NCBI RefSeq assembly: GCF_009707465.1
Contig: NZ_CP046120.1
Location: forward strand, 1,331,501-1,395,500
DNA length: 64,000 nt
Source of the DNA: Novosphingobium sp. Gsoil 351
Lineage (GTDB): Bacteria > Pseudomonadota > Alphaproteobacteria > Sphingomonadales > Sphingomonadaceae
Direction: 5' to 3'
The translations under genes and the position numbers were made by a program. Positions within the stretch are counted from its first letter, which is position 1. Every line of letters starts with the position of its first letter. Positions 5,276 to 27,259 of the stretch are shown here, piece by piece. The notes under the pieces are model-generated. The model did not search any database. It was given only the letters and a program-made list of their open reading frames with translations, and was not told the DNA's origin.

Positions 5276-5288
5276 CGTCCGGTCTCCA

Positions 5289-6761: not shown

Positions 6762-6942
6762 CGGGCAGGGTTCCAATCAATCGGAAGGTTGCGGATCGCA
6801 TGCAAGCCGGGATCCACCGTAGTGTCCGCCCACCTGCTTGACATGAGAGGTCGAGGGCACCCGCCCGAACCACTCTCTAGCAGCACTCGCAGGGCATCGG
6901 CGGGCGCGGGCCGCACCGCTTGGGGGGCGAGCGTGGCCATCG

Positions 6943-8256: not shown

Positions 8257-9017
8257 CGTATCTCTCCCGCCGAGCCGTCTACGCGGTCCGAATCAAAAAT
8301 CTGATAATCCATCAGTTCCGGAGTGCCGGTTGCCGCACAAATACGCCACCGCCATACACACCTAGGGTCAGATATATAACTAGGTTCCACATCATTTGCT
8401 AGGGTTATTTGAGCAGAGAATTGATCGCCGATGCATGGATTGGTCCCTCGCGGATCCCTTCCTGCTGTCGAGTCGGATTCCCTGCCGAACATGACCACCG
8501 TCGCCAGGCTCCGGACCGCAACACATGCCGCAATGATTTTGGGCCGTCACCTCGATCGGGCAGCCGAGCGATTTGAAGCGGAGAAACGGCTTCCTCAACC
8601 GTCGGATCAGACATGACGCCCGTTTATCAATCCGCAGGTCCGCATCCGCGATTTTGGGGCCGGTAGCGGCATGACCGGTTGGTGGAGAGCAAGTGGCTAA
8701 ACCAGTCGTTCGTATCGCAGACCCTATCAGTGTAAACGAGAGGCTCGAGTTGCCATAACGCCCGTTCTCAATCTGAGCACTTTGACCGTTCAACCCTCAT
8801 CCGCAGCGGCGAGTAGATTCACGAAATTGCGCGCTAGTTCGCATCCGCCGCGTGCTCAATCGCGATGTCTAAATCGGGACCACGAACTGCAGCTCGAGCG
8901 CTTGGCGTCGGAGAGATGATCGAGTGAGCTGTTCATCACACGATCCCTGAATTGCCGGGAGGAAGGAAAAGGACACCGTTGATGGCCATGACGCGGGAGG
9001 CCCCTTCCCCGTCCAGC
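8257..9017. other. Intergenic region between catabolic operon and accessory island
   Basis: About 760 bases without a gene I can support. Short open frames on both strands show no recognisable family. The part nearest 8256 should hold the promoter of the amidohydrolase operon; two CTAG tetramers occur at 8362-8365 and 8380-8383 around a TA-rich stretch. The left boundary of the island probably lies here, but no direct repeat or inverted repeat was found. Confidence 0.5.
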
Positions 9018-12000
9018 CTAGTTCCTGCCGGCCTTCTTCGTTCTTATCTTCGATGTTGCAGCGCGTCCGGTATCGCTCTGGGCCATCGCCATGTGGAGAA
9101 AATGCCCTTCGATCCATTGGCTCAGAAATACCCGGGCAAGATCGGGGCGGCGATCGGGCGCCCATGGCATCGCCTTCAACATGCTGAATAGGATGCCGAG
9201 GATGTCCGCCCACTGGTCCCAGCGCCCGCGCAGCGCCTTGCGCAGCAGCATCGCGAAGCAGGCCCCCTTGCGCCACCCCGGCAGATCGGTCGCCCAGACC
9301 AGCGCGGCGAACTCTGCGACAGCTGCAAGGTGCGAGACCATCTCGGCCTTGGGTCCGCCGATGTAGTCGCTCGCCGCGTCGAACAGCGCGCTCGCTTCGG
9401 GCTCGCCGAGAGTTGCGATCGCGATCAGGGTTCCACCGTCGAGCGCAACGTGGCCGTGCTTGAGTGCAGCGAGATGGCCGACACTGCGCGCCAGCTCGGC
9501 CGAGGTCAGGTCGCCCTCGTCGGCGAGCAGCCGGGCGACCGCTTGGAGCCAGCCGCCGCGTCCGCTGCCGTAGCGCCGGCCGAGCTGGCGCAAGTGCAGG
9601 TCGTCGGACAGCAGGTACAGATCGTGCTGCCGAGCTAGCAGCACCGGGTCGAGCATCGCGCGGATAGTGTCGCGATTGACCAAGCTGTTGAGTTCGTGGT
9701 CGTCGCTGCCGTCGACCGGGAGGATCCGGCAACGCGCGCGCAGCGCAGCAATCGCGGCATCGAACATTGCGATCCGTCGCGCGGTATCCTCGGGCGCGTG
9801 GATGGTGCGCACCGGCTGGTCGCCCTCAAAGCCCAGCGTCATGTACTCGCGGTCGAGGTTTGGGCGCTCGCGCTCGCGCATCTCGAGCAGCTCGTCGAGC
9901 ACCGACTGCGGAATCGCCAGATGGCCAAAATGGCCTTCGAGCGCGGGCAGAAGCCCGAGATGGTGCGCGCACCACGCGGTGAACAGGTCAAGCGCGGCAC
10001 CACGTCCGGCGTATGCTGCTGCATCCGCGATCGCCTCGGCGCGCTCTTCGCCGCTGCCCAGACACGTGCGGATTTCCCCTCCCAAGTGACGGATCAGCTC
10101 GGCTACCGCGATGACCGGGCGGTGATGGAGCGCGGCGAGGACGTCGAGCGGAATCGCGAGTTTAGCGTAGGCCGTGAGAATCGCATTGCCCTGCGTGCTC
10201 GACTGGCGCGCAACTTCGAGCACCGGGGTGATGTCGTTGCCCTCGAGCGTCATCTCGCCCATCGTGGTGGACTCGGGAAAGCGCGTGCCGTGACCCTTGG
10301 TGATGTCGTGGAGCAGCCAGATCGCGCGATGCTTGACCTCGCGAATGCGGTATCGGCGGTCCGGTCCGAAAGTCTGCGCCAGCGTCACCTCGTCGCCGAC
10401 CGCCTTGCCCAGCATCGCGCGCGCCAGCGGGTGGTCGGGCGCGTAGCTGGAAACTTCCGGCACTTGGCCCTCTTCGATCAAGCCAGAGACATCGGCGACT
10501 CCCTCGCCTGCCAGGTCAACCCAGCAACCCGGCGCGACGCCGCCGCTCACCGCCACCTCCGCCGGCAAGTCATCTCGGTAAAAGATCAGGGCGGGATAGT
10601 ACTCGACAATCTCGCGGCTGCCGCGGTTGCTGGAGGCGACCGCGAACCCGAGTGCGAGCGCACGCGCATCCTCGCCGTGGCGGCGCAGCAACAACGCGAG
10701 CCGCATCCGGTCGAGCGGCGCGGCGCTTGCCGTCCTCTCGTCGAACGCGGCGACCACAGCAGCCGCATCGGCTTCGCGATCGCCGCGCATCAGCACGCTG
10801 TGGAGGATGATGAGCGCGCGCACATCGCTCGCATTGCCGGCGAGCGCTTGGCGCAAATGGGCTTCGGCCGAGGTGAGATCGCCGCGCGCCGCCTCGGCCG
10901 CGCCGGCGAGCCTGGCATAGTAGGGCTCAGCCAGCAGCGCCGGCCCCAGCCCGGCGAAGAACGCATGGGTGCGCGGACGTGTCGCGGAATTGGCGAAGGC
11001 CAGAGCAAGCCAGCGCAGCGGCGGGCTGTCGTGATCGGTCGCCAGATACCCGTCGAGCGCCCGGATGATCGTCTCGTAATCATTGTCGTGGAGCGCGAGC
11101 TCGGCCATCATCCAGCGTTCGACCTGGTGGGTGTCGGGCCCGAGCGCGGCAAGCATGCGGTCGCTGAGCGCTGGCGCGAGATCGGGCGCATGGCGCCGGG
11201 CGATCTCGGTTGCGGCGACGAGGATGCCCATGCTGTCTGGCCAGCGCGTTAGCAGCGCCTCGATCTCGCCGACGAGATCGTCCGTCGCCCCGGTCTCGGC
11301 CCGGGCGCGCAGCACCATTGTGTCGAACAGCTGCCGGTCGATGCCAGCGATTGCCTCGCCCCGCTCCGGCGTCGCCAGCGCGAGGATCGCAAGCCAGTCT
11401 TGCTTGCTGGCATGAGCAAGCAGGAGCACCAGGGTGCGCGCCGCGCTGTCCGCGACGCGCGCCATGCGCGCGATCGCAGCGTCGTCGCGGTCGTGCATGA
11501 GGTCGACATGGGCCGCTGCAATCAGCGTGTCGTTATCATCGGGCGCGAGCGCCAGCGCTTGGGCAGCAACCCGCTCGGCAGCCGGAGTGTCGCGCAGCAG
11601 GCGATAAGCCGAGATCAGGTTCAGCCCGACCCCGAGCCAATTCTTGTCGGCCGCCATCTCGTAGACGCGGATTTCATCCCAGTGGCGCTGGAGCAAGGCC
11701 GCGGCTGTCACCAACCGTTCGTGCCAGGCGCCTGTCTCGCCCGCGTTCGTGTCGTCGCCGTCGTCTGCCACCGCGCTCCCGACGTTGCGCGCCGCGATCG
11801 CAGCCTCGAGCAGTGCTTCCCCGGCCGCCCGGGCAAGCGGTCCGCTCGCCGGCCAGCGCGAATGCGCAGCGGCCGCCTCGTCCTGCCAGCTGTTGCCGCC
11901 GCGGCGGCGCAGCATGCCGATGCGCGACGGGGCAACTTCTTCCGCCTGCCACAAGGCCCTCGGTACGAACTCGTCGGGGTCGCCCGTAGCGCCCAGTTCA

Positions 12001-12995
12001 ACAGCGACATAGGCCATCGCAGCGACAGCCTCCCACGCCGGGTCTTCTTCGAGCAAACTGCGCGCTTCGGCGAGCGCGCGGTCGGGCTCGCCTGCGAGTG
12101 CCAAGCCCAGCACACGGTTGGCCCGGATTTTTCGGTCGCCGGGGTCGAGCGTCCACGCCTCGAGCAGCAGCTCGCTGGCGGCACAGGTATCATCGAGCTT
12201 GAGACAAGCGAAACCGCAATTGGCTTTGACCCGCGCGCGAACCGCGGCGGAATGCTGTGGCGTCAAGGTCTGTTCAAGCGCCTCGAGCATGGTCAGCGCG
12301 GTTCGCGGCTTGCCGTTGTTGAGCAGGTCGCGGATCTGGTCGATCTGCGCATTGAGGACGGCGTCGATCGCTAGACGGCTCGCCGAATCGCTACCGGCGA
12401 AAGTGGCCGCGAGGCTGCCGACGGCCTGGAGGATTTGCGCGCTTTGGTCAGATAATCCTCTGATCGTGGCGCGATTGGCATCGCCGGTGTCGCGGGTCTC
12501 GGTGGTGATCTCGATCAGCTGCGCGGTCGATGCGCTATGGTCGGGATCGAACGCGTTGAGCGCGACCCTATCGCCGCGGATACGGCGCTGCAGCTCGTCC
12601 CAGCCCCAAATCTGAATGTCGATCGTGCGGCCCAGCGCCGCTTGCTCCTGTCGCAACGTCAGAGCCAGGATATCATAGGCCAGATCGTCAGAAGCAGTGG
12701 TCGCGACATAGAGCTCGGTGAGCAGCGGGCGGATTGCCAGCGCGCGCGCCACATCCGAGCGGATCGCTGCCTCGCCGAGCTTGTCGCCTTTCGTCTTGAG
12801 CTTGCATTGCACCGCGACAGGCTTGTGGGGATCGCGATCCCGCGCGCCGATGAGGTCGATGCCCTGCTGGTTCTTGCCTCGCGTCGCCACCCGCTTAAAA
12901 TTGGGATCGCTGACGTGGCCCGCGAACAGCGGAACGCACTTCTCCTCAAAATCCGTATCGTTGGCCGGCATGGCGATGACGGTGTTGGCGCTCAT
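9018..12995 (-). CDS. Mrr-like nuclease/TPR/GreA-GreB-C/PIN conflict-system protein
   Basis: A 1325-aa multidomain protein. Residues ~14-115 form a restriction-endonuclease-like fold with DFEEK, GIDLIG (D47) and VAVQCK (Q63, K65), the PD-(D/E)xK variant seen in Mrr-type nucleases. Residues ~190-780 are helical TPR-like repeats. Residues ~810-910 match the GreA/GreB C-terminal domain (APDHPLARAMLGKAVGDEV). Residues ~970-1150 form a PIN RNase-like domain (IPQSVLDELLEM, VDGSDDHELN, LLSDDLHLRQLG). The TPR-GreAB-C-PIN arrangement is a predicted conflict effector family; cleavage of RNA associated with a stalled polymerase has been suggested for such proteins but I know of no test. It is a single gene with no clear Shine-Dalgarno and no obvious partner. 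Confidence 0.85.
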   Translation of the reverse strand: MSANTVIAMPANDTDFEEKCVPLFAGHVSDPNFKRVATRGKNQQGIDLIGARDRDPHKPVAVQCKLKTKGDKLGEAAIRSDVARALAIRPLLTELYVATTASDDLAYDILALTLRQEQAALGRTIDIQIWGWDELQRRIRGDRVALNAFDPDHSASTAQLIEITTETRDTGDANRATIRGLSDQSAQILQAVGSLAATFAGSDSASRLAIDAVLNAQIDQIRDLLNNGKPRTALTMLEALEQTLTPQHSAAVRARVKANCGFACLKLDDTCAASELLLEAWTLDPGDRKIRANRVLGLALAGEPDRALAEARSLLEEDPAWEAVAAMAYVAVELGATGDPDEFVPRALWQAEEVAPSRIGMLRRRGGNSWQDEAAAAHSRWPASGPLARAAGEALLEAAIAARNVGSAVADDGDDTNAGETGAWHERLVTAAALLQRHWDEIRVYEMAADKNWLGVGLNLISAYRLLRDTPAAERVAAQALALAPDDNDTLIAAAHVDLMHDRDDAAIARMARVADSAARTLVLLLAHASKQDWLAILALATPERGEAIAGIDRQLFDTMVLRARAETGATDDLVGEIEALLTRWPDSMGILVAATEIARRHAPDLAPALSDRMLAALGPDTHQVERWMMAELALHDNDYETIIRALDGYLATDHDSPPLRWLALAFANSATRPRTHAFFAGLGPALLAEPYYARLAGAAEAARGDLTSAEAHLRQALAGNASDVRALIILHSVLMRGDREADAAAVVAAFDERTASAAPLDRMRLALLLRRHGEDARALALGFAVASSNRGSREIVEYYPALIFYRDDLPAEVAVSGGVAPGCWVDLAGEGVADVSGLIEEGQVPEVSSYAPDHPLARAMLGKAVGDEVTLAQTFGPDRRYRIREVKHRAIWLLHDITKGHGTRFPESTTMGEMTLEGNDITPVLEVARQSSTQGNAILTAYAKLAIPLDVLAALHHRPVIAVAELIRHLGGEIRTCLGSGEERAEAIADAAAYAGRGAALDLFTAWCAHHLGLLPALEGHFGHLAIPQSVLDELLEMRERERPNLDREYMTLGFEGDQPVRTIHAPEDTARRIAMFDAAIAALRARCRILPVDGSDDHELNSLVNRDTIRAMLDPVLLARQHDLYLLSDDLHLRQLGRRYGSGRGGWLQAVARLLADEGDLTSAELARSVGHLAALKHGHVALDGGTLIAIATLGEPEASALFDAASDYIGGPKAEMVSHLAAVAEFAALVWATDLPGWRKGACFAMLLRKALRGRWDQWADILGILFSMLKAMPWAPDRRPDLARVFLSQWIEGHFLHMAMAQSDTGRAATSKIRTKKAGRN

Positions 12996-13312
12996 TGGGT
13001 ATGATCTGGCGTAACTGCGCTAGGAATCAACTCCGATCACAGCGCATCGTGCCGCTTAACCAAGCGTGCGGTCGCCGAGCCTCGTTCGCCATGTCAAAAT
13101 CAAAACACCCGCCGACTACCTGTCGATCATAATTTTGACGTTTGGCACAGCGGTTGCGCGCTCAATCGACGCCGACGGAGGCGTGCCCGAGTTGTCGGCG
13201 GCCCCATCGGATGTTTCTGAGCGCACCTCATGAGGCACATCGGGCCGGATGGCCGGTTACGGCGACCAATCTCAAGCGAGCAGACATAGCGGGTAGCTCA
13301 ATCCGCTTTGTC
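12996..13312. other. Intergenic region upstream of the conflict protein
   Basis: About 320 bases between two minus-strand genes. It should contain the promoter of the TPR-GreC-PIN gene; a TTGACA-like box lies on the minus strand at 13097-13092, but no convincing -10 box follows. No gene or repeat is visible. Confidence 0.4.
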
Positions 13313-13990
13313 TCATTCTTCCTCGCTTGCATCTGAAACCTGATCGCCAGTCGCTGGTGTCACGACGTTGCCGTTCGCATCCACGTATGCCGTGTCATCG
13401 CCTTCCATGGCTTCGCTCTCGGCCTCGCTTGCAGCGGCCTTCGCCGCAAGCCTGGCTACTGCTCGCTTAGTGACCCCGGCGGCGTATGCATCGAGTGCCG
13501 ACCAGCGTTCATCCATGGTCGATTGGTCGTCTGCGTGTGACTTGGCCGCAGCAAAAAAACGCCCCGCCGCGGCTTCGCCATCCAGGTAAGTCAGTTCGGC
13601 ATCGCTCCCGGTTTGCAAGCCTTCGAGCACGTTATGGACCGCCAGCGCGTCGAAGGCGCCGCATTGGTCCAACTTCGACCAGGTAAATCGCTCTTCCAGT
13701 GCCGCGTAGCAGTTCTTGCTAAAGATCATGCTGGAGGTGGCATCGTCGACTGCCGCAACCTTCGTGAACGATTCCGCACCGATGCCTAGGTCCGATTTCG
13801 ATTGGGCGAGCACAGGAGTCGGCGTCGGCGTGGGCGCATCCGTGGCTGCTGGCGCAGTGTCGAACGAGCTAGCGCTGGTCGACTGTGAGGAATCCGCGCA
13901 CTTCACGACGAGGAGGATGACGCCGACGAGCGCAACAAGCGCCAGGCATCCCTGATCTGTTTTCTCAGGTTTCGGCTTGGCGGCTGTCAT
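13313..13990 (-). CDS. Membrane-anchored hypothetical protein with proline-rich linker
   Basis: 225-aa protein of no recognised family. It has a short basic N-terminus, one hydrophobic segment at residues ~15-30 (CLALVALVGVILLVVKC), a low-complexity linker with PTPTPTP at ~55-60, a ~100-residue domain with two cysteines (NCYAALEERF, LDQCGAFDAL), and an acidic, alanine-rich C-terminus. The layout suggests a single-pass inner-membrane protein with a periplasmic domain. It is divergent from the hxs operon across ~100 bases, so the two may share a control region. No functional assignment. Confidence 0.6.
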   Translation of the reverse strand: MTAAKPKPEKTDQGCLALVALVGVILLVVKCADSSQSTSASSFDTAPAATDAPTPTPTPVLAQSKSDLGIGAESFTKVAAVDDATSSMIFSKNCYAALEERFTWSKLDQCGAFDALAVHNVLEGLQTGSDAELTYLDGEAAAGRFFAAAKSHADDQSTMDERWSALDAYAAGVTKRAVARLAAKAAASEAESEAMEGDDTAYVDANGNVVTPATGDQVSDASEEE

Positions 13991-14091
13991 CCTGAAGATC
14001 GGCTCCCCTCAACCGATGAAATTCCAACTGGGGTTCTTCGATACAAGGTCTTCGAAATCAATTCCAAGCGCAATCGCAATGCGTTAGGAAA

Positions 14092-14352
14092 GTGGCGGAG
14101 GGGGCCATCACTATTCGTATCGCAATTCCCGAGGGTCTTTCCGACGGTCAAGTCGTGACCGCGATTGCGCACATGCTCGACGAATTTCCAGAGTTCGCGA
14201 TTTTCGCTGATCAGTCGTGGATCCACGCTGACGGCGCCTGCCTCAGCGATCGGTCGCTGCGTGGAATTTTCATGTCCGCCCTTGCCAACGCGCGCCTAGA
14301 GCAGGTCCGCGCCGAGGCCCACGCAAGGCTCCTCGAGCACCTTCTCGCATGA
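14092..14352 (+). CDS. hxsD: His-Xaa-Ser system protein HxsD
   Basis: 86-aa protein starting at GTG 14092. It has no catalytic motif; the C-terminal helix (FMSALANARLEQ, EAHARLLEHLLA) resembles the conserved end of HxsD proteins, and it lies exactly where HxsD occurs in Hxs operons. It overlaps hxsB by four bases (ATGA at 14349), implying coupled translation. HxsD function is unknown; a small chaperone or recognition role for the maturases would be a guess. The assignment rests on position plus weak tail similarity. Confidence 0.6.
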   Translation: MAEGAITIRIAIPEGLSDGQVVTAIAHMLDEFPEFAIFADQSWIHADGACLSDRSLRGIFMSALANARLEQVRAEAHARLLEHLLA

Positions 14353-15752
14353 GGATGGCGCCCCTCAAACTTCGGGCGCGGCGCGACGGCGACGTTCTTT
14401 GCGTGTCCAGCTCAGGCGACTTCTTTCAGGCTTCCGCTGACTTTGCGGTCCGCTTGGCAACTGACGCGCTTACGACCGGAGATGCGAGCCAGCTCCAACG
14501 CTGGGGTTTGATGGCGGCGGCAGATCTTGACTGGAACTTGCAGGGTCTGAAGCTTGCTCGGCGGATGAGCGTGGTTCGCGAACTCGACTATCTCATCCTC
14601 GTTCCAACGCTTCGTTGCAATCTGAGCTGCAGTTATTGCCAAGTGTCGCGGGTCAACGAAACGCAGGTGGGGTTCGACTGGAGCGAGGAGACTCTCGCCG
14701 GTGTGCTGGCTTTGATCGATAGCCTTCCGAGCGATCAGATCAAGGTCGAGTTCCAGGGTGGCGAGCCGACGTTACGTCCGGACTTGATCGAAGCCGTAAT
14801 CGCGCGATGCGCCCGCTTCACCCATGCGGAATTTGTCGTCTGCACCAACTTGCAGTCACTCAGCGATGTGGCAATAGCGCTGTTTGATCGCTCGGACGTG
14901 TTCATCAGCACTTCGCTGGATGGCAGCGCAGCTACACATCGACGGCAGCGCACCGCCACCGACGAAGCGAATACCCAATTCCACGAGAATTTGCGGTTCC
15001 TGGTCGATCGGTATGGACCCGGAAAGATTTCGGCCCTGCCAACCATCGATCCGGCAAACCCTCCCGATCCCGACGACCTGATCGGCGCCTACTCCAGTCT
15101 GGGCCTAGCCAGCATCTTTCTTCGTCCGATCAATTTTCAGGGCTTTGCGCGCAAGCGCCACGCGGGTTCGAAATCGCTTCCAAGGACGTGGAGTGATTAC
15201 CACGAGAGGTTCGTCCGGCGAATGATCGCGCGAAACTGGGATGATCGGACGCGCGTGCTCGAAGAAACGTATCTGAGCATCTGCCTGCGCCGGATTTTCC
15301 AGCCGGGCGCAGAGCGTCACGTCGATCTTCGCAACCCCAACCCGATGGGAATCGACTATCTCGTCGTCGATCACGATGGGACATTTTACCCGACTGACGA
15401 AGCGCGGATGCTTGCGCGATCAGGCGTGATCGACCTTTCGATAGGCAGTATCTCAGCCGGCATTGATCTGGAGAAGCGCGCGCTGCTAAACCGGCACGCA
15501 ACCAACAGTTTCGATCCCGACTGCATCCGCTGCGCATACCAGCCATTCTGCGGACGCGACGTTGTCGACGATCTCTCACGCTATGGCACGATTGATGTGC
15601 GGCGCCTCAATACCGAGTTCTGCCGCCGGCATAGAGACATCTTCGATTTCGCCTTCGAGCTCATCTACTCCGAGGACGAAGCAACGCGCTATTCGCTTTG
15701 CCGCTGGCTCGGCTTGTCGGGTGAAATTCCCCTTGGGGAGGTTCTCCAGTGA
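14349..15752 (+). CDS. hxsB: His-Xaa-Ser system radical SAM maturase HxsB
   Basis: 467-aa radical SAM enzyme. The [4Fe-4S]/SAM motif is CxxxCxxC at C90, C94 and C97 (LRCNLSCSYCQ), followed by the glycine-rich EFQGGEPTLRPDL segment. A cysteine-rich SPASM-like C-terminal region (CIRCAYQPFCGRD, later EFCRRH) would hold auxiliary iron-sulfur clusters, as in peptide-modifying maturases. It is predicted to modify the His-Xaa-Ser repeat protein encoded two genes downstream; the chemistry is unknown. The start at ATG 14349 overlaps hxsD and the end overlaps hxsC, both by four bases. Confidence 0.9.
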   Translation: MRMAPLKLRARRDGDVLCVSSSGDFFQASADFAVRLATDALTTGDASQLQRWGLMAAADLDWNLQGLKLARRMSVVRELDYLILVPTLRCNLSCSYCQVSRVNETQVGFDWSEETLAGVLALIDSLPSDQIKVEFQGGEPTLRPDLIEAVIARCARFTHAEFVVCTNLQSLSDVAIALFDRSDVFISTSLDGSAATHRRQRTATDEANTQFHENLRFLVDRYGPGKISALPTIDPANPPDPDDLIGAYSSLGLASIFLRPINFQGFARKRHAGSKSLPRTWSDYHERFVRRMIARNWDDRTRVLEETYLSICLRRIFQPGAERHVDLRNPNPMGIDYLVVDHDGTFYPTDEARMLARSGVIDLSIGSISAGIDLEKRALLNRHATNSFDPDCIRCAYQPFCGRDVVDDLSRYGTIDVRRLNTEFCRRHRDIFDFAFELIYSEDEATRYSLCRWLGLSGEIPLGEVLQ

Positions 15753-16840
15753 TCCCGCTGCGCCTGCCGGCAGCCATCGAAGCCGAAAGGCCATTCGTCA
15801 CGCGGATTGAGGATGCCGGCGCGAGGCCCGCGGGCAAGCGGCGGTTCCAAAGCTGGATTGTTGGCGACGACGTGTTCGGCCTAGCTCTGGCCGGTGATCA
15901 AGGCCTATTCACAATCGATGGAATCCAAGCATCACAAGTGGTCGGTGATGTACTGCTGGTCGATCCCATTCGGCAGCAGGCGGAGCGCCTGATCCGGGCT
16001 GATTCCTTGCACAACACGCTGCTAGTAACTGAGCGCTGCGATCAACTTTGCCAGATGTGCTCGCAGCCGCCGAAGAAAACCCATGAGGATCGTTTCGAGC
16101 TTCTTCGTCAGGCGAGCTTGTTGGCTCCAGAAGGCGCCACCCTTGGCATCACGGGAGGGGAGCCGACCCTCTACAAGAACGAACTCTTCGATCTTATCGA
16201 AATCACGCTAGGTGAACGTCCCGACATGTCGTTTCACGTGCTTTCCAACGGCCAGCACTTCGAACAACATGACGTCGGGCGGCTGCGGAACCCGGCGTTC
16301 GCGAGAGTCACTTGGGGCATTCCGCTGTACTCGTCGGCCGCGTCAGAACATGACGCAATCGTTGGCAAACCCGGCGCGTTCGAGAGGCTTCACCAGAGCT
16401 TTGGTCGTCTCGTGGAGGCGGGAGCGAGGGTCGAGCTTCGCACTGTTGTTCTGAGCTCCAACGCTTTCGAGTTACCGGCGCTTGCAAAGCACATCGTCTG
16501 GCGGCTCCCGTTCATCGGGAGCTGGTCCGTCATGCAGCTTGAAAACATAGGGTTCGCCAAGAACCGCTGGTCCAAATTGTTCTTCGATCACCGGGCGAAC
16601 TTTACGCCGATAGCCGAGGCCCTGGATCGGGCGAGCCTTCACGCGCTTCAAGCGCGTCTCTTCAACTTTCCTCTGTGCACAGTGCCGCCGGCCTACCGTT
16701 CGTACGCTGTCCGCTCGATCTCCGACTGGAAGCAGAAATATGTCGCCGCGTGCGACGATTGCTCACTGAAGCCGCGGTGTGCTGGCTTTTTCGAATGGCA
16801 TTCCGGGGAGCACGCAAACGCGTGGGTGAGGCCAGAATGA
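15749..16840 (+). CDS. hxsC: His-Xaa-Ser system radical SAM maturase HxsC
   Basis: 363-aa second radical SAM protein of the operon. The cluster-binding motif is at C97, C101 and C104 (TERCDQLCQMCSQ), followed by GITGGEPTLYKNELF. The C-terminus has a further cysteine group, ACDDCSLKPRCAGFF, typical of HxsC. Two different maturases acting on one substrate is the hallmark of Hxs loci. Four-base overlaps join it to hxsB upstream and hxsA downstream. The product of the reaction is not known. Confidence 0.9.
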   Translation: MIPLRLPAAIEAERPFVTRIEDAGARPAGKRRFQSWIVGDDVFGLALAGDQGLFTIDGIQASQVVGDVLLVDPIRQQAERLIRADSLHNTLLVTERCDQLCQMCSQPPKKTHEDRFELLRQASLLAPEGATLGITGGEPTLYKNELFDLIEITLGERPDMSFHVLSNGQHFEQHDVGRLRNPAFARVTWGIPLYSSAASEHDAIVGKPGAFERLHQSFGRLVEAGARVELRTVVLSSNAFELPALAKHIVWRLPFIGSWSVMQLENIGFAKNRWSKLFFDHRANFTPIAEALDRASLHALQARLFNFPLCTVPPAYRSYAVRSISDWKQKYVAACDDCSLKPRCAGFFEWHSGEHANAWVRPE

Positions 16841-17508
16841 GGGCGGGGCGTTTTCTTGTCGCGAGCCTGGTAACGGCCGGCTTTGGCGATGTCAGCCTCG
16901 CCCAGGAGCGACTGGTTGGCATTGCTACGGGCTCGGATCCTGGCGCCAACGAAAGCCTTCTCGAGCAAGCCTACGCCCGTGAGCACCTATTCACGCTCGC
17001 CGGTCATCGTAGCCATTCCAGCCATAGCAGCCACTCTAGCCATCGATCGTCGTACGGCGGGACGGGCCATTCCAGCCACGTCAGCCACACGAGTCATCGC
17101 TCCAGCACCGGCGGCGGCGGATACGACTACGTTGCCCCACCGGCAGCGGTCTACACCAGCCCACAAACCACCACGGCACCTCGGCGAAGCCAGCCTTCGG
17201 TCCCCTACGAAGACACCGGCTCATCGAGTTCGAACACCCAACGTTACGGCTTCATTTCGCCGAGCAACGATGAGTCGAGGTCTTCTGGTTTGAAGCCCCT
17301 CACGGGGCGGAGCGAGCGGTTTCGAATGATCGTGTGCAGGGTTCAGCTGGCGCTGGCTGCCCGGGATTTCTATTCGGGCGCGATCGATTGCACTGTGGGG
17401 CCTAAACTTCGCGGTGCGCTGCGGCGCTTCCAGGATTCTCACAAACTCAACGGGACAGGCACGATAACACCGGAGGTGTTAGACGCATTGATGGTATCAA
17501 CAGATTGA
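16837..17508 (+). CDS. hxsA: His-Xaa-Ser repeat protein HxsA (modification substrate) with peptidoglycan-binding domain
   Basis: 223-aa protein starting at ATG 16837 inside the hxsC stop; longer in-frame starts lie wholly within hxsC. Residues 1-23 look like a signal peptide (VSLAQ before the mature region). Residues 57-71 contain five His-x-Ser triplets and residues 78-89 four more, in a Ser/Gly-rich low-complexity tract. Residues ~164-219 match a peptidoglycan-binding type 1 helical domain (FYSGAIDCTVGPKLRGALRRF). It is the presumed substrate of HxsB and HxsC, exported and held on the cell wall. Biological role unknown. Confidence 0.9.
   Translation: MRAGRFLVASLVTAGFGDVSLAQERLVGIATGSDPGANESLLEQAYAREHLFTLAGHRSHSSHSSHSSHRSSYGGTGHSSHVSHTSHRSSTGGGGYDYVAPPAAVYTSPQTTTAPRRSQPSVPYEDTGSSSSNTQRYGFISPSNDESRSSGLKPLTGRSERFRMIVCRVQLALAARDFYSGAIDCTVGPKLRGALRRFQDSHKLNGTGTITPEVLDALMVSTD
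17005..17103 (+). repeat. His-Xaa-Ser triplet array inside hxsA
   Basis: Two blocks of His-x-Ser codons: five triplets at 17005-17049 and four at 17068-17103. Histidine codons are all CAT or CAC but serine codons vary (AGC, TCC, TCT, TCG, AGT). The repeat is therefore conserved as protein rather than as recent DNA duplication. Confidence 0.85.
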
Positions 17509-17612
17509 ATCTCGGGAATTTTCTGAGGACTATGGCGGGGCCGGAAGCAGTCCATCTGGTGTTAAGCTGAGCATTGCCAAAAGCAGACCATCGCTCGCTA
17601 ACACTCCCGTTG

Positions 17613-19451
17613 TCAGGGAAAAACTAGGTCACCCATTCCAACAAAACTAGCTCCGCAGGCCAATGCCGACGCGCGCGCCGCCAACATTAGAGTGTCAATC
17701 TGCCGAATCCGCATCGCATAGCTAGGGGCCGCCCCATCCGCACGGCACCTGATGTGTTCACGTTTCGTCACGCGAGGCTGCAATACGATGAGTACCTTGC
17801 TCGCACTGGCAGGCAACGCCTGGATTGCCGCAAGCATCGCAGTACGGTTGGGTTGCTTTATGCCATTGTGCCAGACGGCGGCACCAATCTTGCGGCCCTT
17901 CCCCTTTTTCAACTCGGCAGCAAGATTGCGGCGGTCGAGGTGGCGAAGGTTCTTCACGGCCTGAGCGACCACCACCTCATAATCGGTAGGTGCCGCGGAA
18001 CGATCATCGCCAGTCTTGCTCGAGGCCTTGACATGCACCAGGCTAATTATCGCTTTGACCGGATCGATATGGATAAAATCTGCTAGTTCCATTGAGCCGT
18101 CGTCGCTAGCGAGCCAGCCGCTCGGCTGCCCTTGATCGTCAAGAAACATTTTCTGCACGACATAAGCGAAGAGCGACGTATCGCCTGCGGTCGCGATTTC
18201 CGCTGCGAGAGTTGAGCCCGCGGGTACGACTGGCTTTTCTCGATCGATCTCATAGCCATCGAAGGTTCGGAAGTCCCATTCGAAAGGCTGATCCGAATAG
18301 CCACCACGGTAGCAATGCCCCTGCGCGATGGCATGCCCGCTCTCGTAAAAGATTTTCACCTGATGCGGATCGCTAAGATATCGTGCGCATTCGTTGCGCT
18401 CGACTTCCTTGCCTGCGACAGTCGCGCTCCAGATCAATGTGAATGCAGCCTCCCCGTTGACCATGTTTACGCCGAGATCGGCGGTCCCGATGGGCTGTCC
18501 GTCGAGTGCCACCGCTACACGCAGCGACAGCCCTGGAAGTGGCTCGACCTCAAAGGTGGCGTCGAACGCCCAGCGTCGAGCACGCTCGCGTTCAGCGGCG
18601 GCGATCTCATCTTCCGACAGAAGCTCGCCAGGAATAATCGTGATACCGTAGGCCACCGCTACCTCAGCGACGTCTTCGACGGGCTGGGAAAGCGCGGCGA
18701 ACGGGCTCGGTGGCCGAGCGCCATTCAAAGCATGGTCGATGATTACCGCAATTACGCGACGATAGTCTTCCCAATCAGTCGCCCGCCGCACCCAAAGACG
18801 TGAGTTGCCGGGTGCAGCACCAACCAGCGGCTTTTTGAGATCGGCGGGTTTGCCGAGGCCGGCGACATCTGGAACAGTGCGCGCAGCAGCGCAGTAATAC
18901 GTCTGATCGCCGATTGGATCGATCGCGTATTCGAGCGCAATACCAGTGATCGCCTTGCTATCGGCCTTTGACGCGGTCGGCGTGTGCGCGCCACTCAACC
19001 ACAACGCGCGCGCCTCGTCGCCAATAAAGGCCGCGATCGCATCGCGCGGCATTTTGCGAACTGCGTTGCACTCCTTGACGATCCTATCGCGCATAGTGCC
19101 GTCGGAAGCTGAAAGCGCGACGATCTTGTCGCGCACTGCAATCACGAGCAATTGATGATCTTCGTTTTCGAGAGCAATCGTCCCAGCCCAAGCCGGCTGA
19201 CTGGTCTCCCGGTAAATGACCGCCTGGAGAATTAGCCCGTCCCCTTCATCGATGCCTGTCGTGCGTACAATCCGGCGACGAACATGATTCGAGCTAGCGC
19301 GGGCCAGTTCCGCTGACTTGTTAACGAGCCGCCTCAATAAATCCGCGCCTCGCAGTTCGCCCACTGCTTCAAGCAAAACGGGCGCAATGAAAGGTCTAAG
19401 CTGCGGAAAATCTATCTCGGGCTGTGGCATCAGGTCCCCCGTCCCATCCAT
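17613..19451 (-). CDS. Large hypothetical island protein with nuclease-like HxK motif
   Basis: 612-aa soluble protein that I cannot assign to a named family. Around residues 455-476 it has ELADFIHID, then ISLVHVKASS, a D-n-(H/E)xK pattern compatible with a PD-(D/E)xK-like nuclease core, followed by YEVVVAQAVKNLRHLD. A beta-rich middle region around residues 300-430 has no obvious motif. It stands alone between the hxs operon and the ABC-three-component genes, transcribed toward hxsA. Its location suggests a defence role, which is inference. Confidence 0.6.
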   Translation of the reverse strand: MDGTGDLMPQPEIDFPQLRPFIAPVLLEAVGELRGADLLRRLVNKSAELARASSNHVRRRIVRTTGIDEGDGLILQAVIYRETSQPAWAGTIALENEDHQLLVIAVRDKIVALSASDGTMRDRIVKECNAVRKMPRDAIAAFIGDEARALWLSGAHTPTASKADSKAITGIALEYAIDPIGDQTYYCAAARTVPDVAGLGKPADLKKPLVGAAPGNSRLWVRRATDWEDYRRVIAVIIDHALNGARPPSPFAALSQPVEDVAEVAVAYGITIIPGELLSEDEIAAAERERARRWAFDATFEVEPLPGLSLRVAVALDGQPIGTADLGVNMVNGEAAFTLIWSATVAGKEVERNECARYLSDPHQVKIFYESGHAIAQGHCYRGGYSDQPFEWDFRTFDGYEIDREKPVVPAGSTLAAEIATAGDTSLFAYVVQKMFLDDQGQPSGWLASDDGSMELADFIHIDPVKAIISLVHVKASSKTGDDRSAAPTDYEVVVAQAVKNLRHLDRRNLAAELKKGKGRKIGAAVWHNGIKQPNRTAMLAAIQALPASASKVLIVLQPRVTKREHIRCRADGAAPSYAMRIRQIDTLMLAARASALACGASFVGMGDLVFP

Positions 19452-19792
19452 GATCTGTGACTACAGAGCTTACCGCTTATCGTGTCTTTTGGCTCCTTGA
19501 TCGGCTCAATCCCGCTTGTCTCCTATCAGCCGTCGTTTCGCGGTCCTACTACGCTGATCGCAATAAGCAGAGATTCGGATCCCCACGGACAAGATTGCGC
19601 ATGAAGTGCCGCTGCTTGGGCTTACAGGGGGGGCGGTTGCAGAGTGTCAGCTCGAGGCTAGGCTCCCGCGAAAATCGGACTCGACCGTCGACACGATGGG
19701 TCCCGTGGAGATGGGTCGTAAGCGTGATATCGAGTTCTTTCCTGCTTGCGGCAAAATCCGTGTTCTGTAATTCTCGCCGTGCAGGGGGCTAG
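19452..19792. other. Divergent intergenic region
   Basis: About 340 bases between the divergent 612-aa gene and the ABC-three-component operon, so it must hold at least one promoter. A G7 run lies at 19627-19633. An open frame on the plus strand ending at 19792 shows no family similarity and is not called. Confidence 0.4.
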
Positions 19793-20713
19793 ATGGCAAT
19801 TCGACGTGAATGGAAGGGTGATGAGTGGCAGGAATTCGCCCTGCAACTTGTCCAGCGCCGACACGGCGCCGAAAACGTGCAGATAGTTCCGGACAAGGTA
19901 AAAGGTGATGCGGGACTGGAGTTCTTCACAACCTGTGGTTGCTTTTATCAGTGCTATGCGCCGCAAGAAGCATCGGATGTAGCCAAGGCCGCGAGCGCCA
20001 TGAAAGCCAAAGCCGGTCGCGATCTGCCCAAATTGATAAAGAACAAAACGATAATCGAAAAGCTTCTGGCTGGCACAAAGGGTAAGCGATGGATTCTCCT
20101 CTGTCCGTTCCTCGATAACAAAGAAGTTGTCGCCTCCGTGCGGGAGCGCGGTCTTACAATAAGGGCAGAGAATCTCGCCTTCCTCACGTCGGAATTTGAA
20201 GCGCCTTGTCACTCTCAGCAGGACTTTCTGGCGGAAATCGAGCAACTGAAGGCCCTTTCGCTAGGGCCACCGCTCAGTGTTGCATCGCCGACCGCGGAAG
20301 AGGTGAAGGATGCAGCCGGTGACACGGAGATAGGCGTGCGGATCGATGCCAAGCTAGGCCGGGCGTTCGGCCCAAACGCCCCCGGTGGTCAAATCGTGGC
20401 ACGCCGCGACCAGTATGTTAAGGCCCACCTCCACCGCGAGAACGCGCTCGAACAGTTGCGCGATAACCACGCGGTACTTTGGGAGCGTGCGTTCGAGACG
20501 ATCGAAGCGGAGGAAGCCCGACTTATTGCCGTCGGCGCGACGTCGACCATACCTGGTCAGCAGCTACAGGAGAGCATGAACCGGATGGAGAATTCGCTTG
20601 CGCAAGCGTTGCCGACTCTGAATCCAGCACTCCGAACGCGCATCGCGCTCGGCACCATTAGCGATTGGCTGATCCGGTGCCCGCTCGACTTTCCGGAAAG
20701 CGATCTGAGTTGA
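19793..20713 (+). CDS. ABC-three-component system effector-side protein with nuclease-like N-terminus
   Basis: 306-aa first gene of a three-gene operon. The N-terminal ~60 residues carry KGDAGLEFF (D39, E43) and FYQCYAPQE (Q53), resembling the D-n-(D/E)xQ core of restriction-like nucleases, though the catalytic Lys is not evident. The C-terminal third ends with GTISDWLIRCPLDF, similar to the C-terminal domain by which ABC-3C effectors dock to their partners. It overlaps the next gene by four bases (TTGA). ABC-3C systems are predicted anti-phage conflict systems; here the effector would be nucleolytic (inference). Confidence 0.7.
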   Translation: MAIRREWKGDEWQEFALQLVQRRHGAENVQIVPDKVKGDAGLEFFTTCGCFYQCYAPQEASDVAKAASAMKAKAGRDLPKLIKNKTIIEKLLAGTKGKRWILLCPFLDNKEVVASVRERGLTIRAENLAFLTSEFEAPCHSQQDFLAEIEQLKALSLGPPLSVASPTAEEVKDAAGDTEIGVRIDAKLGRAFGPNAPGGQIVARRDQYVKAHLHRENALEQLRDNHAVLWERAFETIEAEEARLIAVGATSTIPGQQLQESMNRMENSLAQALPTLNPALRTRIALGTISDWLIRCPLDFPESDLS

Positions 20714-21189
20714 GCAGCGAGGAATTCGCCCATACGCGCTTTTCGTTCGAGCGGCGGCCGACGCCGGTGCCCGGTGATTTGCGGATTACCTGGCGCGTGT
20801 CGCTGATTCTCCTCATGCTCTCGGCGTCGCGATCGAGCCGGGCATCCCTTGCGAAGCTCCACATAGTGAATGACGCGATCCGGTCCAATCAGATCGCGCG
20901 GCTTCGGGATGCAACCGACGCAGACGCCAAGATTCTACCCTGGAATCTGCGTGTCGAGCCGGCATTCGCCCGGGCGATCGATTTCGTCGTCGGAGAACGC
21001 CTCGCAGAATGGACTAGAACCGGCGGCCGCGCTTCGCTGCAGCTCACGAGTAGAGGGCTATCAGCGGCAAAACAGATCGAGAAGGTCGATGACGCACTTG
21101 AGCGTGAACGAGCAATCGTTTTCGAACACGCCAAGAAACTTACCGAAATCCGCGTGTCCGCACTGTTGGGCGAGCGACAAGCAGCATGA
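20710..21189 (+). CDS. ABC-three-component system middle component
   Basis: 159-aa protein read from TTG 20710, which overlaps the preceding stop; no closer ATG fits. The segment PVPGDLRITWRVSLILLML and the following SRASLAKLHIVNDAIRS are typical of middle-component winged-helix proteins of ABC-3C systems, which bridge the ATPase and effector. The C-terminus is a helical stretch rich in charge. It overlaps the ATPase gene by ATGA at 21186. The small size and position between effector and ATPase support the call. Confidence 0.7.
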   Translation: MSSEEFAHTRFSFERRPTPVPGDLRITWRVSLILLMLSASRSSRASLAKLHIVNDAIRSNQIARLRDATDADAKILPWNLRVEPAFARAIDFVVGERLAEWTRTGGRASLQLTSRGLSAAKQIEKVDDALERERAIVFEHAKKLTEIRVSALLGERQAA

Positions 21190-23262
21190 TACGGCTCCGC
21201 CATCTGCGGTTGCGATCGTTCACCGCCGAACACGCCTATGGGGCGGACATTCCGTTCAGTCCGGGCCTCAACATCATTCAAGCGCCCAACACGTCGGGCA
21301 AATCGACCTGCCTTCAGGCGATCATTTACGCGCTCGGGCTCGAGCGGTCACTTGGTCCACAGCTAACTATCCCGCTCCCCTATGCGATGCGCGAGCGTAT
21401 CCATGCTGTTGAAAGCGACCCATATGAGGTCGTGCTGCAGTCATTCGTCGAATTGGAGATCGAGAATAGCCGTGGTGAGATCGTCGTGCTGCATCGAGAT
21501 GTGGTCGGGGCGAAGGATAGCAGACTGATCCAAGTGACGTTCGGCGCATCGCTGAGCCAAGACGCTCCGCGAAGCCGACAGCGCGACTTCTATGTGTTGG
21601 ACGGCGGATCGGCGGTTCAGGAAGACGGGTTTCACCGCTACTTCGCCGGTTTTCTCGGTTGGGAGCTGCCGATCGTTGCGCGCTATGACGGCACTGAGTG
21701 CCCGCTCTATCTCGAAACTATCTTTCCGATGCTGTTCGTCGAACAGAAGCGAGGCTGGTCTACGATCCAAGGGCCGTTCCCGACATTCTTCCGCATCCAG
21801 GACGTGGCGCGCCGGGTGATGGAGTTCCTGTTGAATCTCGATGTAGCGCAGTTTCGACGGCAGCGCTCGGAGTTGCGCAATACCATTGCGGAACTCAACC
21901 ATCGCTGGACTAACGAGCGCAACAAACTAGCCGAAGCCGCGGCGAGAATAGGGCGCGTCCGTGGACTCCCACAGCAGCCGAGCGCCGAGTTCGCGCAGGA
22001 TTCGCAAATCGATTTACAGTTGTATCAGGAGGGCGAGTGGGTACCGCTCTCAACCCTAATCACCGAAATCGAAACGCTTGTTTCGGAGCTTGAAGCCGCG
22101 CAGTTGCAGACGGTTGACGCGGTCGCACCGCAGCTTGAGGCGCGGGTTGCAACGCTACGCAGCCAGATCGACACGGAAAGTGCGATTCTCGAGGCTGTGC
22201 GAAGCGAATATGCCGCCGAGACCCAAGATAGTCAGGCAATGGGTGCACGCGTTCGATCGCTGGAGGTCGACTTGCGCCGAAATCAAGACGCCCAAAAGCT
22301 TCAACGACTAGGGTCCGAGCTTGGCAAGGCGTCCTCAGAACATGTCTGCCCAACCTGTCATCAAGGCGTATCGAACGAACTGCTTCCAACCGTCGAGGCG
22401 GTGGGCATGGGCATCGAAGAAAATATCGCCTTCGTGAAGTCTCAGCTTGAGCTTTACCGATCCGCACAGGGCGCGTCGGGCGAACGAATTCAGGAGATTG
22501 CCGGGCGCTTCCGCGGCGTGGAGCGCAACCTGCAGGACAAGCAAAAGGAATTGCGCAGTTTGCGCCAGGAATTGGTCCGACCCGGCACGTCACCGTCGCG
22601 TGCCGCGATTGAAAATCTGGTTCGGCAGCAGAATTTCCTGGCACAGCTCAGTGGTGTCGACGATCTAGCGATCTCACTGCTGGACGAACTCAAGGCCATA
22701 GCAATTGAATGGGCAAAGACTAAGGACGCGCTGGCCCGGCTTCCCCCCCGACAATCTCACGAATGAGGACCTCAAAAAGGTCGAGATCCTCACAACGAAG
22801 ATCTATGAACAGCTAAAAAGCTATGGTTTCCGGTCCTTCCAGCCAGGTGAGATCGCGCTATCGACGGACAATTTCCGTCCGCTTGTCCGTGAGCGCAAGG
22901 GAAGCGAGATAGTCGAGAAGGAGATCAATTTCGAAGTTTCGGCAAGCGACGCGATTCGTCTTAAATGGGCTTATCTTCTTGCCGCCTTCGAACTGATGCG
23001 CGACCGCCCCACGAACCACCCCGGACTGGTGATCTTCGACGAGCCCGGACAACAAGAGATCGATTCGGGAAGCCTGTTTGCTTTCTTAAAGCGCTCGGCC
23101 ACCGCCGCTCAGACGGGTCAGGTCATTGTTTCAACGTCCGAGCCCTTGGTGTCAGTGCGTCACGAGATGGGCACGAGCGGACAGATTATCGATTTCCCTG
23201 GTTTTATCCTCCAACCTGCGATGAACTACTCCCCTGGCGAGTTTGATGAACTACTTGGATAG
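21186..23262 (+). pseudogene. ABC-three-component system Rad50/SMC-like ATPase, frameshifted
   Basis: Rad50-like ABC ATPase split over two frames. The first part (from ATG 21186) has Walker A APNTSGKST at residues ~33-41, long coiled-coil arms and a zinc-hook-like CPTCHQ near residue 387. It leaves frame at a C7 run (22743-22749). In the next frame the protein continues PDNLTNEDLKKVEIL, the ABC signature region ASDAIRLKWAYLL, Walker B PGLVIFDEP and the switch region IVSTSEP, ending at 23262. Six C instead of seven gives one continuous protein of about 690 aa. It would power the three-component conflict system. The shift may be a base-calling indel or, less likely, phase variation. Confidence 0.8.
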
Positions 23263-23309
23263 GGCGCAACCTGAGCGGCACCTCTGGAGATGCGATTGGA
23301 GCGTGCGGA

Positions 23310-23618
23310 ATGACTGGAATGGAAGCGCACAGCCGCCGGTCTGAAAAGCTCCGTCTCGACTTCCTCGCGATCCGGCGCATGGTCCGCGACATGTCGACCG
23401 AGCCGGACTTCTCGACCCACGACCTGGTTGCCCATCTCTGCCTGGAGGCTGGTCGCATCATGGAAGACACGAGCGTCGAGTTTGCGCTGACGCTTCCCGA
23501 GGAGCAACAGCAGCGAACCGACCGTTTGGATCGACTGCATCAAGCTGGCAGCGACATCGTCGCACTCGCTGTGGCGGCGCAGGCGCTGCGCCGCCGCTAC
23601 TGTCTCGCGTCCGTTTGA
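23310..23618 (+). CDS. Small hypothetical protein
   Basis: 102-aa helical, charged protein, no family recognised. It follows the ABC-3C ATPase by 47 nt on the same strand and may belong to that operon or be independent. It ends four bases before the convergent MucR gene. No membrane segment, cysteine cluster or catalytic motif is visible. Confidence 0.5.
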   Translation: MTGMEAHSRRSEKLRLDFLAIRRMVRDMSTEPDFSTHDLVAHLCLEAGRIMEDTSVEFALTLPEEQQQRTDRLDRLHQAGSDIVALAVAAQALRRRYCLASV

Positions 23619-23621
23619 GCT

Positions 23622-24335
23622 CTACGGTGCCTTGGGCTTGCGCCCTCGCTTGGCCGGCGGCGAAGTCACTGGCGTAGCTGTTGCAGGCGCGGCAGCATTA
23701 GGCCCTGCAGGTTTTGAGGCCGAAGCTTTGGGTGATGCGGATTTCTTCGAGACGGGTTTTGCCGCGGCTGGTTTTGCTGCGGCTGGCTTTTTCGATGCCG
23801 GTTTTGCCGCCGTGGGCTTGGGCGTCGCAGCAGGTTTTTCCGCGGCAGCCTTTAGCGCCGCAGCTTTCGGCGTAACTGCGTCCGGCGCCGGCGCTTTCGC
23901 GGGAGCTGCCGCCACCTTGGCCGCAGGCTTTCGGCCCAGGCCGATCCTCTTCGCCATATCGCGGCGAACTTCGGAGTAGCTCGCCGAGACCATCGGATAG
24001 TCGGACTTGAGGTTATAGCGCTGGCGATATTGCTCGGGCGTCAGTCCATGACCTGACAGGTGCCGCCGTAGCGTCTTGTAGGGCTTGCCATCGATCAATG
24101 AGATGATGTGGTCCTTCGAGGACAGCGAACGACGCACCGTGACCGCTGGGATATATTCGGGTTCGGCCGGTTGTTCGGCAGGAGCCGTGGTCAGGTTGAT
24201 CACCGCCTGATGCATGTTCTGCAAAAACGCTGGCACGTCTTCGCTCGATGCTTTGGTGTTGGGATTGGCGAGCCAGGCGATCGTAAGTTCGGTGGCGAGC
24301 TCAACTGAATCGGTTGAAGCTGTATCTTCGGCCAT
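23622..24335 (-). CDS. MucR family transcriptional regulator with long Ala/Lys/Pro-rich tail
   Basis: 237-aa protein from ATG 24335, preceded by GGAGGA; upstream in-frame codons to 24446 are not needed. Residues ~65-130 match the MucR/Ros domain (YIPAVTVRRSL, YKTLRRHLSGHGLTPEQYR). The cysteines of the Ros zinc finger are replaced (SSKDHIISLIDG), as in cysteine-less MucR homologues. From about residue 135 to the end the protein is an Ala/Lys/Pro/Ser-rich tail with repeated AAKPAA and KKPAAAKP units and a terminal RGRKPKAP AT-hook-like motif, like histone H1 or AlgP tails. A DNA-binding, possibly nucleoid-structuring role is inferred. Confidence 0.88.
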   Translation of the reverse strand: MAEDTASTDSVELATELTIAWLANPNTKASSEDVPAFLQNMHQAVINLTTAPAEQPAEPEYIPAVTVRRSLSSKDHIISLIDGKPYKTLRRHLSGHGLTPEQYRQRYNLKSDYPMVSASYSEVRRDMAKRIGLGRKPAAKVAAAPAKAPAPDAVTPKAAALKAAAEKPAATPKPTAAKPASKKPAAAKPAAAKPVSKKSASPKASASKPAGPNAAAPATATPVTSPPAKRGRKPKAP

Positions 24336-24566
24336 CAATGTATCCTCCCGTTTGTCGCACTGCTCTAACGGACCAGCAGTATTCGTCAATTGCGCGACGT
24401 TATTCCGTAATACTGAACATTCCATTCGACTTGTGGCGCGCACCAAGCATTGGTGTCGTCACCGAACGCCGGGAAGCAAGGCGACGGTGTCCCCGACGAT
24501 GCGCTCGATCGGGGCTGTGGGTGGTGGGAGCCGCGACTGGCGCGGCTCGATGATGGAGCACCACCC

Positions 24567-27217: not shown

Positions 27218-27259
27218 CTGAGGCATTTTTCCATTCTATATCAATAACTTACGACTTGG

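Follow-up and report, generated by a model that had tools for sequence, protein, structure and literature searches.

The closest described counterpart of the genes considered here is the Hxs (His-Xaa-Ser) system, reportedly first described by Haft and Basu in 2011 (as a citing paper has it) and represented by the protein families TIGR03976–03979, TIGR03981 and TIGR03982. We analysed a 64,000-nucleotide stretch of Novosphingobium sp. Gsoil 351 (contig NZ_CP046120.1, positions 1,331,501–1,395,500), henceforth ‘the window’, which carries an hxs operon at 14092–17508. This operon is a real, intact member of the known Hxs family and belongs to a divergent lineage: it shares with the described system an HxsB and an HxsC above the family cut-offs, an HxsA with repeats and a peptidoglycan-binding domain, and the gene order D-B-C-A, but differs in a D-position protein that the family model does not recognise, an HxsA 4.5 bits short of its cut-off, the absence of a MauG-like/TIGR03982 pair after hxsA, an extra divergent gene, and a separate HxsC lineage (100/100). 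What deserves attention is this lineage and a newly observed association with phage-defence genes, rather than the operon itself. Hxs occurs in Escherichia coli genomes and on plasmids, yet the literature found by search, which took in few subscription papers, gives neither its modification nor its role, as a first, sequence-only reading of the locus had stated, and reports no function and no defence link; a paper on defence islands, in its accessible part, mentions a radical SAM (S-adenosylmethionine) protein as a hotspot flank, not Hxs.

All four genes lie on the + strand: an hxsD-like gene (14092–14352; 86 aa, GTG start), hxsB (14349–15752; 467 aa), hxsC (15749–16840; 363 aa, GTG start) and hxsA (16837–17508; 223 aa, with a longer mechanical open reading frame (ORF) from 16675 also open). 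The three overlaps between them are of 4 bases each and read ATGA, GTGA and ATGA, so that the ORF positions and four-base overlaps given by the sequence-only reading are confirmed. HxsB scored 380.5 bits on TIGR03978 (cut-off 370) and HxsC 307.6 bits on TIGR03977 (cut-off 267.9). Because both exceed their equivalog cut-offs, the claim survived its own computational test, namely that the two maturases should match the HxsB and HxsC models. The wider TIGR03976–03979 search proposed alongside it succeeded for these two enzymes and not for the others: HxsA fell just short on TIGR03979 (117.1 bits, E 9.2e-34, against 121.65), and the hxsD ORF matched neither TIGR03976 nor any other NCBIfam family. 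With the MauG-like/TIGR03982 pair also missing after hxsA, the description of the operon as ‘complete’ does not hold. The window genome (3.82 Mb, one contig) has a single place above the HxsB cut-off.

Both maturases conserve the residues expected of radical SAM enzymes with one auxiliary cluster site. In HxsB the CxxxCxxC motif lies at 90/94/97 and the auxiliary Cys at 392/395/401/425; in HxsC the corresponding positions are 97/101/104 and 310/335/338/344, so the motifs and Cys-rich C-termini noted earlier were found as described. In alignments from which two near-duplicate loci were omitted, all seven HxsB positions were Cys in 20/20 rows; those of HxsC were Cys wherever a letter was present, in 20/20 rows at each of the first two positions, where a single row is gapped, and in 21/21 at the remaining five. 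By sequence, the nearest solved relative of HxsB is ChlB, a multiple cyclophane synthase. The N-terminus of HxsB shows, within a whole-protein model of middling confidence, the element order of a PqqD-like RiPP (ribosomally synthesised and post-translationally modified peptide) recognition element (RRE), three strands followed by three helices, and alignments of the whole model to the folds of CteB and TigE start at HxsB residues 4 and 1, respectively. PDB entries 5wgg and 5why, which we take to be CteB, have titles that speak of sactipeptide thioether formation; in contrast to the substrates of CteB-type thioether maturases and PapB, the HxsA repeat is without Cys, and therefore no thioether is possible within it.

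HxsA contains nine H-x-S triplets, whereas 2000 shuffles of its sequence averaged 1.71 and never gave more than 6; the nine are arranged in two clusters (residues 57–71 and 78–89; 17005–17103). Their codons vary (CAT or CAC for His; AGC, TCG, AGT or TCC for Ser), which argues for selection at the protein level and against a recent DNA repeat. The second cluster is present in 5 of 12 aligned HxsA proteins of the lineage (the window, L052, L059, L060 and L071; L and G handles denote the loci and genomes compared, and numbers attached to a locus handle are positions in that locus). A C-terminal PG_binding_1 domain (residues 166–218, 17332–17490; PF01471, E 5.9e-9) bears out, with the triplet count, the earlier description of the protein. 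Residues 1–22 (16837–16902) resemble a signal peptide, with a core kept across the 12 aligned proteins (majority letters FLI.SL.AAG), and HxsA is probably exported.

The D-position protein is tied to the known family less directly. TIGR03976 matched canonical HxsD in the three cases tried (L061, 97.5 bits; L063, 72.4; L066, 40, the last below the cut-off of 50), and missed not only the window protein but also the D-position proteins of L052, L054, L072, L073 and L074. Profile–profile comparison with hhalign gave 95.2% between the window group (6 sequences) and a rhizobial group (14), 64.6% between the rhizobial group and canonical HxsD (9), and 83.8% between the whole lineage (20) and canonical HxsD; the window group compared directly with canonical HxsD gave 13.5% only, and reversed controls 0.25–0.93%. 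The window protein would thus be ‘HxsD-like’ through profile chains only. Its AlphaFold2 model (predicted local distance difference test, pLDDT, 84.9) has a predicted strand-helix-strand-strand-long helix order. An RRE identity was considered for it and set aside, the predicted element order being different and the fold search pointing to no evident relative; that the rows listed in this search included no RRE chains excludes nothing. In 14 lineage loci on plasmids (L138, L140–L152) no gene is named HxsD, a weak negative given the incomplete PLSDB gene table; the D position holds a ‘hypothetical protein’ in nine and an unannotated ORF in three more. One plasmid locus, L143, has no D ORF and an hxsB reduced to its last third. 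Judging by these unrecognised proteins, a large branch probably escapes the current HxsD model.

We put at about 0.5 the probability of our overall reading, that this divergent-lineage operon makes a cross-linked, wall-bound repeat protein. It starts from what can be observed, namely the gene content, the conserved residues, the domains and the conservation of the repeat; from these we infer an order of events. In the cytoplasm, the conserved N-terminal part of HxsA would be bound much like a leader, by the small HxsD-like protein and the RRE-like N-terminal domain of HxsB. HxsB and HxsC, each with a radical SAM and one auxiliary cluster, would then cross-link the H-x-S triplets from His(i) to Ser(i+2), yielding strained three-residue rings of triceptide type. 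The modified HxsA would afterwards be exported and held on peptidoglycan through PG_binding_1. That HxsB and HxsC modify the triplets is highly probable, and display of HxsA at the wall is likely too; ring chemistry is plausible, and the His(i)–Ser(i+2) bond, the least certain step, is a tentative proposal. The comparison behind it is with the triceptide, or three-residue cyclophane, synthases (XncB, MscB, HaaB, YhhB and ChlB), which likewise use a His or other aromatic residue at i, a target at i+2 and repeated motifs; such synthases make a C–C bond from the aromatic residue to the Cβ of i+2. Hxs differs from them in having two radical SAM enzymes with one auxiliary cluster site each, and in that its target is of wall type whereas theirs are small peptides. 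The link to ChlB and the i, i+2 spacing together amount to a definite chemical prediction.

A number of observations weigh against this reading. HxsB passes no cyclophane-synthase model among the 25 best of 72 families, scoring 45.7 bits against a cut-off of 445 for YhhB, 42.5 against 425 for AmcB and 31.4 against 370 for FxsB, and among the matches listed its best non-Hxs family is the thioether (ranthipeptide) enzyme PapB (75.7 against 340 bits). SPASM radical SAM enzymes have two auxiliary clusters and a pattern of seven auxiliary Cys. HxsB and HxsC each conserve four auxiliary Cys instead of seven, a set that fits the twitch domain, with its one auxiliary cluster (PMC9012708, in the part accessible). 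Simple ring formation does not explain two radical SAM enzymes for one motif; the modified residue in HxsA is a prediction, and its export is read from the sequence only. The AlphaFold2 model of HxsB, built on a four-sequence alignment, is middling (pLDDT 69.8, several stretches below 50). Moreover, in L057, L058 and L149 the reading frames beside hxsB include no hxsD-like ORF, and the lineage D profile found nothing in these loci at E≤0.5 (best 0.64, in L058, far from hxs); because three loci do without it, the D protein is not always needed.

The lineage is sharply separated. A tree of 34 HxsC rows, rooted at the midpoint for drawing only, divides into a canonical group of 9 rows (100/100) and the window lineage of 25 rows (100/100). 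L064 and L065 fall in the canonical group though they come from the window's own class, and L074 falls in the lineage from outside that class, on a branch so long that its placement is unsure; these placements suggest transfer. The closest HxsC by identity (59%) is that of L052, from Novosphingobium guangzhouense. Proteins above the HxsC cut-off are sporadic, occurring in 5/298 genomes of the same family, which includes Novosphingobium and, judged by identical matches, Sphingorhabdus sp. 109, and in 15/398 of the phylum (window genome counted in both); the many weaker matches to the model are other radical SAM proteins, also found in 13/14 control genomes. A scan of genome contigs gave five loci, among them L053, an apparent duplicate of L057 with identical scores, L055, a 4.5-kb contig with a broken hxsC, and L056, a weak match; L062, a near-copy of L061, was excluded from counts.

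In larger collections, too, Hxs lies on mobile DNA. DNA similar to the L061 Hxs locus, a query from the canonical lineage, was found in 153/5426 E. coli genomes, always on the chromosome; of five such loci inspected, four were close to genes for an integrase, recombinase or relaxase, and the fifth lay among phage tail genes. HxsC relatives occur in 431 of 72,556 plasmid records (333 of them Klebsiella), with at least 80% of the query covered in 329/431, and in 2 of 50,697 phage records: an annotated hxsC in a Leptospira phage (35% identity over 75% of the query) and an unannotated one (28% over 72%). Plasmid loci for comparison were taken from distinct organisms by rank, skipping near-duplicates, although L145 and L152 proved close. 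Published accounts, in the parts accessible, place hxs beside integrative-element and phage genes (PMC8446631) and at a strain-variable position (PMC6537148).

Partner genes around the core operon vary. The MauG-like/TIGR03982 pair follows hxsA in four of the 25 lineage loci: L054 (TIGR03981, 391.7 bits against a cut-off of 340; TIGR03982, 81.9 against 40), L057 (TIGR03981, 380 bits), L058, which has homologues of both genes, and L149, where both are annotated. Three of the four (L057, L058 and L149) are those without a D ORF. The MauG-like protein of L054 is a relative of the MauG and MbnH di-haem enzymes, at 66.3 and 95.2 bits, under the cut-offs of those families. In the window, the gene after hxsA, the only place where TIGR03982 was sought, matches no NCBIfam family, and CCP_MauG has no match in the window genome. 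A different gene stands on the other side of the operon (13313–13990, − strand; 225 aa), matching no Pfam family and encoding one N-terminal hydrophobic stretch, by reading, and a domain with conserved Cys. Homologues lie near hxs in L052, L058 (downstream there), L059, L060 and L071, so that 6/11 lineage loci on chromosomes or contigs, the set covered by this count, have it if the window is included; all but L058 of these six also have the second H-x-S cluster. No correlation is claimed among the variable genes, since the loci are few and related. In the window's family the divergent gene may encode an extra partner, probably a membrane protein; its recurrence beside hxs, like the phage-defence neighbours, was missed by the sequence-only reading.

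Genes of phage-defence type were more frequent among hand-picked neighbours of hxs than among control proteins. At E≤1e-20, PADLOC models matched 11/30 neighbour proteins from 15 loci, compared with at most 6/60 control proteins (Fisher p 0.0035); by locus, matches fell in 7/15, or 6/15 without L054. They comprised AbiE (L052), two Lamassu proteins (L058), two proteins of a reverse-transcriptase system (L071), a type IV restriction enzyme (L061), SIR2- and ThsB-like proteins (L063), AriA/OLD-like and ThsA-like proteins (L066), and an SbcC-like ATPase resembling LmuB (L054), the last probably not Lamassu because an SbcD-like gene adjoins it. The count leaves aside weaker matches to a protease domain in L073 and to a phospholipase in L074. 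Controls were the four largest ORFs, rather than the nearest, in each of 15 arbitrary regions of Hxs genomes, judged at E≤1e-20 only, and matched mad3, GlgB (C3a214), two GajB/UvrD models, RTasHel and mad8 once each. The neighbours had been picked by hand as large and near, some of those in L054, L061, L063, L066, L073 and L074 after family results were known; L068 and L069 were outside the sample, and separate analyses served for the window, L057 and L072.

The most repeated neighbour is the cyclic-oligonucleotide-based antiphage signalling system (CBASS), whose genes lie within ~3 kb of hxs in 5/25 lineage loci (L057, L138, L140, L141 and L072, the last with homologues of the Cap2- and Cap3-like genes of L057). 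Because the five fall in two parts of the tree, they stand for two or more associations and cannot be taken as five separate cases; the CBASS of L138 had been noticed before the other 13 plasmid loci were taken. DncV-like synthases occur in 3/9 Hxs genomes compared with 1/115 background Alphaproteobacteria, near hxs in G089 only (on other contigs in G011, and on another contig of a fragmented assembly in G351). Among the remaining plasmid loci, for which the gene table is incomplete, L151 has AbiE genes, L150 an endonuclease/UvrD pair, and most no named defence system. In L134, on an E. coli chromosome at ssrA, the genes immediately before hxsD (5156–9309) are annotated as an ABC-three-component system. 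This association is new and testable, and such repeated placement beside defence systems, above all CBASS, turns an ‘unknown peptide modification’ into a hypothesis that experiments can address; it may also reflect no more than shared islands, and its main weaknesses are precisely the hand selection of the proteins tested and that shared island biology.

One explanation of these data is that Hxs itself works in the cell envelope against phages or in other conflicts, with modified HxsA changing the wall or getting in the way of an incoming element: a cross-linked, peptidoglycan-bound HxsA would guard the wall, and Hxs would travel with CBASS, Lamassu, Thoeris-like, AbiE and reverse-transcriptase systems because its task is related to theirs. 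The lineage, with its own HxsD-like protein and, in the window's family, the probable membrane partner, would be one branch of the module. The PADLOC excess, the Lamassu genes at the window and L058, the CBASS loci (whose gene order and side differ among L138, L140 and L141), the L134 system and the DncV-like synthases all speak for it. Any mobile cargo, however, clusters with defence genes in islands; the test proteins were selected as stated above; six of the 15 loci (L059, L060, L064, L065, L067 and L070, two proteins each) had no PADLOC match even at E≤1e-5; the window genome gave 0 matches to DncV-like CD-NTases (cGAS/DncV-like nucleotidyltransferases; PF21654, the one family of these searched); and in none of the four Hxs proteins did Pfam find a domain for killing, such as a nuclease or NADase. 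We regard a defence function as unlikely, if deserving of experiment.

Less credible again is a wall protein for handling metal or peroxide, its clustered His, modified or not, serving as ligands for copper, iron or haem; where a locus has the periplasmic MauG-like enzyme, that enzyme would oxidise HxsA further. The lanthipeptide noursin does require a His cross-link to bind copper (PMC10206099, in the part accessible), and the MauG-like/TIGR03982 pair does follow hxsA in four loci; but only those four of the 25 lineage loci have it, the window genome has no CCP_MauG match, metal-uptake genes did not stand out among the neighbour families that recur (most of them not identified), and the middle residue of the HxsA triplets is mostly Ser or Arg, neither a usual ligand. 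We consider it very improbable that HxsA serves as precursor for a peptide released to act on other cells. Its short repetitive core and RiPP-type enzymes would suit such a role, and on two rhizobial plasmids hxs lies beside YhhB cyclophane-peptide genes (L143, 89–1243; L144, 482–2897, with YhhA); yet L143 is the locus with the truncated hxsB, among the genes tested around hxs in the window Pfam recognised neither a protease nor a peptide exporter, and a conserved C-terminal PG_binding_1 domain fits anchoring better than release. Modification of HxsA followed by retention at the cell wall is the likely reading, its chemistry and role being predictions.

The DNA carrying the operon looks acquired. 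On the left, the window keeps its collinearity with two relatives as far as 8308 and 8270, through genes that are themselves found at length in only a few of 31 genomes of the genus, and the right flank matches relatives from 27509 in 8/8 stretches, the gene at that position being present in 30/31 genus genomes. Between them, 8309–27508 matched 17 relative stretches only in a tRNA-Ser, ~58 bases adjoining it (L113) and 170 bases at 68% (L112). A large serine recombinase (25231–27009, + strand; PF00239, E 6.1e-39; PF07508, E 2e-13) lies beside that tRNA-Ser(gga) (27260–27350, − strand), a possible integration site, and together with the near-absence of matches this upholds the earlier impression of mobile-looking surroundings. 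Composition is weak evidence for an island: G+C is 0.61 over this region and 0.60 in hxs, while the right side has 0.66 and the left side 0.62. Synteny around the tRNA-Ser was tried as proof of the right end and rejected: in 5/7 relatives its flanks have no match to the window, the other two being L112 and L113, and in all eight relatives compared the gene at 27509 lies elsewhere, without that tRNA-Ser. An exact 24-base copy of the tRNA-Ser 3′ end, in the same orientation, is found 168 kb to the left (L116, 7573–7596; G000:C1:1190572-1190595) and is possibly the attachment-site scar of a larger element; a 422-aa gene near it encodes a cyclase-type protein, not an integrase.

Within this region hxs has several conflict-type neighbours. 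Downstream, on the + strand, lie Lamassu-like genes for LmuA (19793–20713; PADLOC, E 3.9e-15), LmuC (20665–21189; E 1.9e-15) and the SMC/ABC ATPase LmuB (21186–23262), LmuA and LmuB being present by PADLOC models that have no curated cut-off. The LmuB-like gene is split in this assembly because two overlapping ORFs carry it (21186–22766, E 5.7e-81; 22705–23262, E 1.1e-21), covering profile positions 2–449 and 454–587; in L058, unlike the window copy, the counterpart is one ORF of 629 aa, so that an assembly error, a pseudogene or a frame change may be involved. Between hxs and Lamassu, 17613–19451 (− strand) encodes a 612-aa protein with a partial match to the defence candidate PDC-S71 (E 6.2e-8, residues 424–515) and no Pfam or NCBIfam match. 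Upstream, 9018–12995 (− strand) encodes a 1325-aa conflict protein of TPR-GreAB-C-PIN type (PF20698, E 1.5e-29; no PADLOC match), with weak, under-cut-off Mrr-like matches at its N-terminus and a G+C of up to 0.70, above its surroundings.

Elsewhere, further genes recur next to hxs. A TIGR04141/DUF6119 protein directly follows hxsA in four of the five E. coli loci inspected (L133, 13422–15026; L134, 13452–15264, frameshifted; L136, 13417–15024; L137, 13423–15030) and in L061 (10984–12594). Two rhizobial plasmids (L142, 9727–13087; L150, 8646–12003) have, after hxsA, genes for a von Willebrand factor A (VWA) protein, a PP2C phosphatase and a large protein, which in L150 bears a kinase annotation; the trio may form a further partner set. 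In L147 (4509–5093) and L151 (4554–5075), a second peptidoglycan-binding protein is encoded divergently from the D-position gene.

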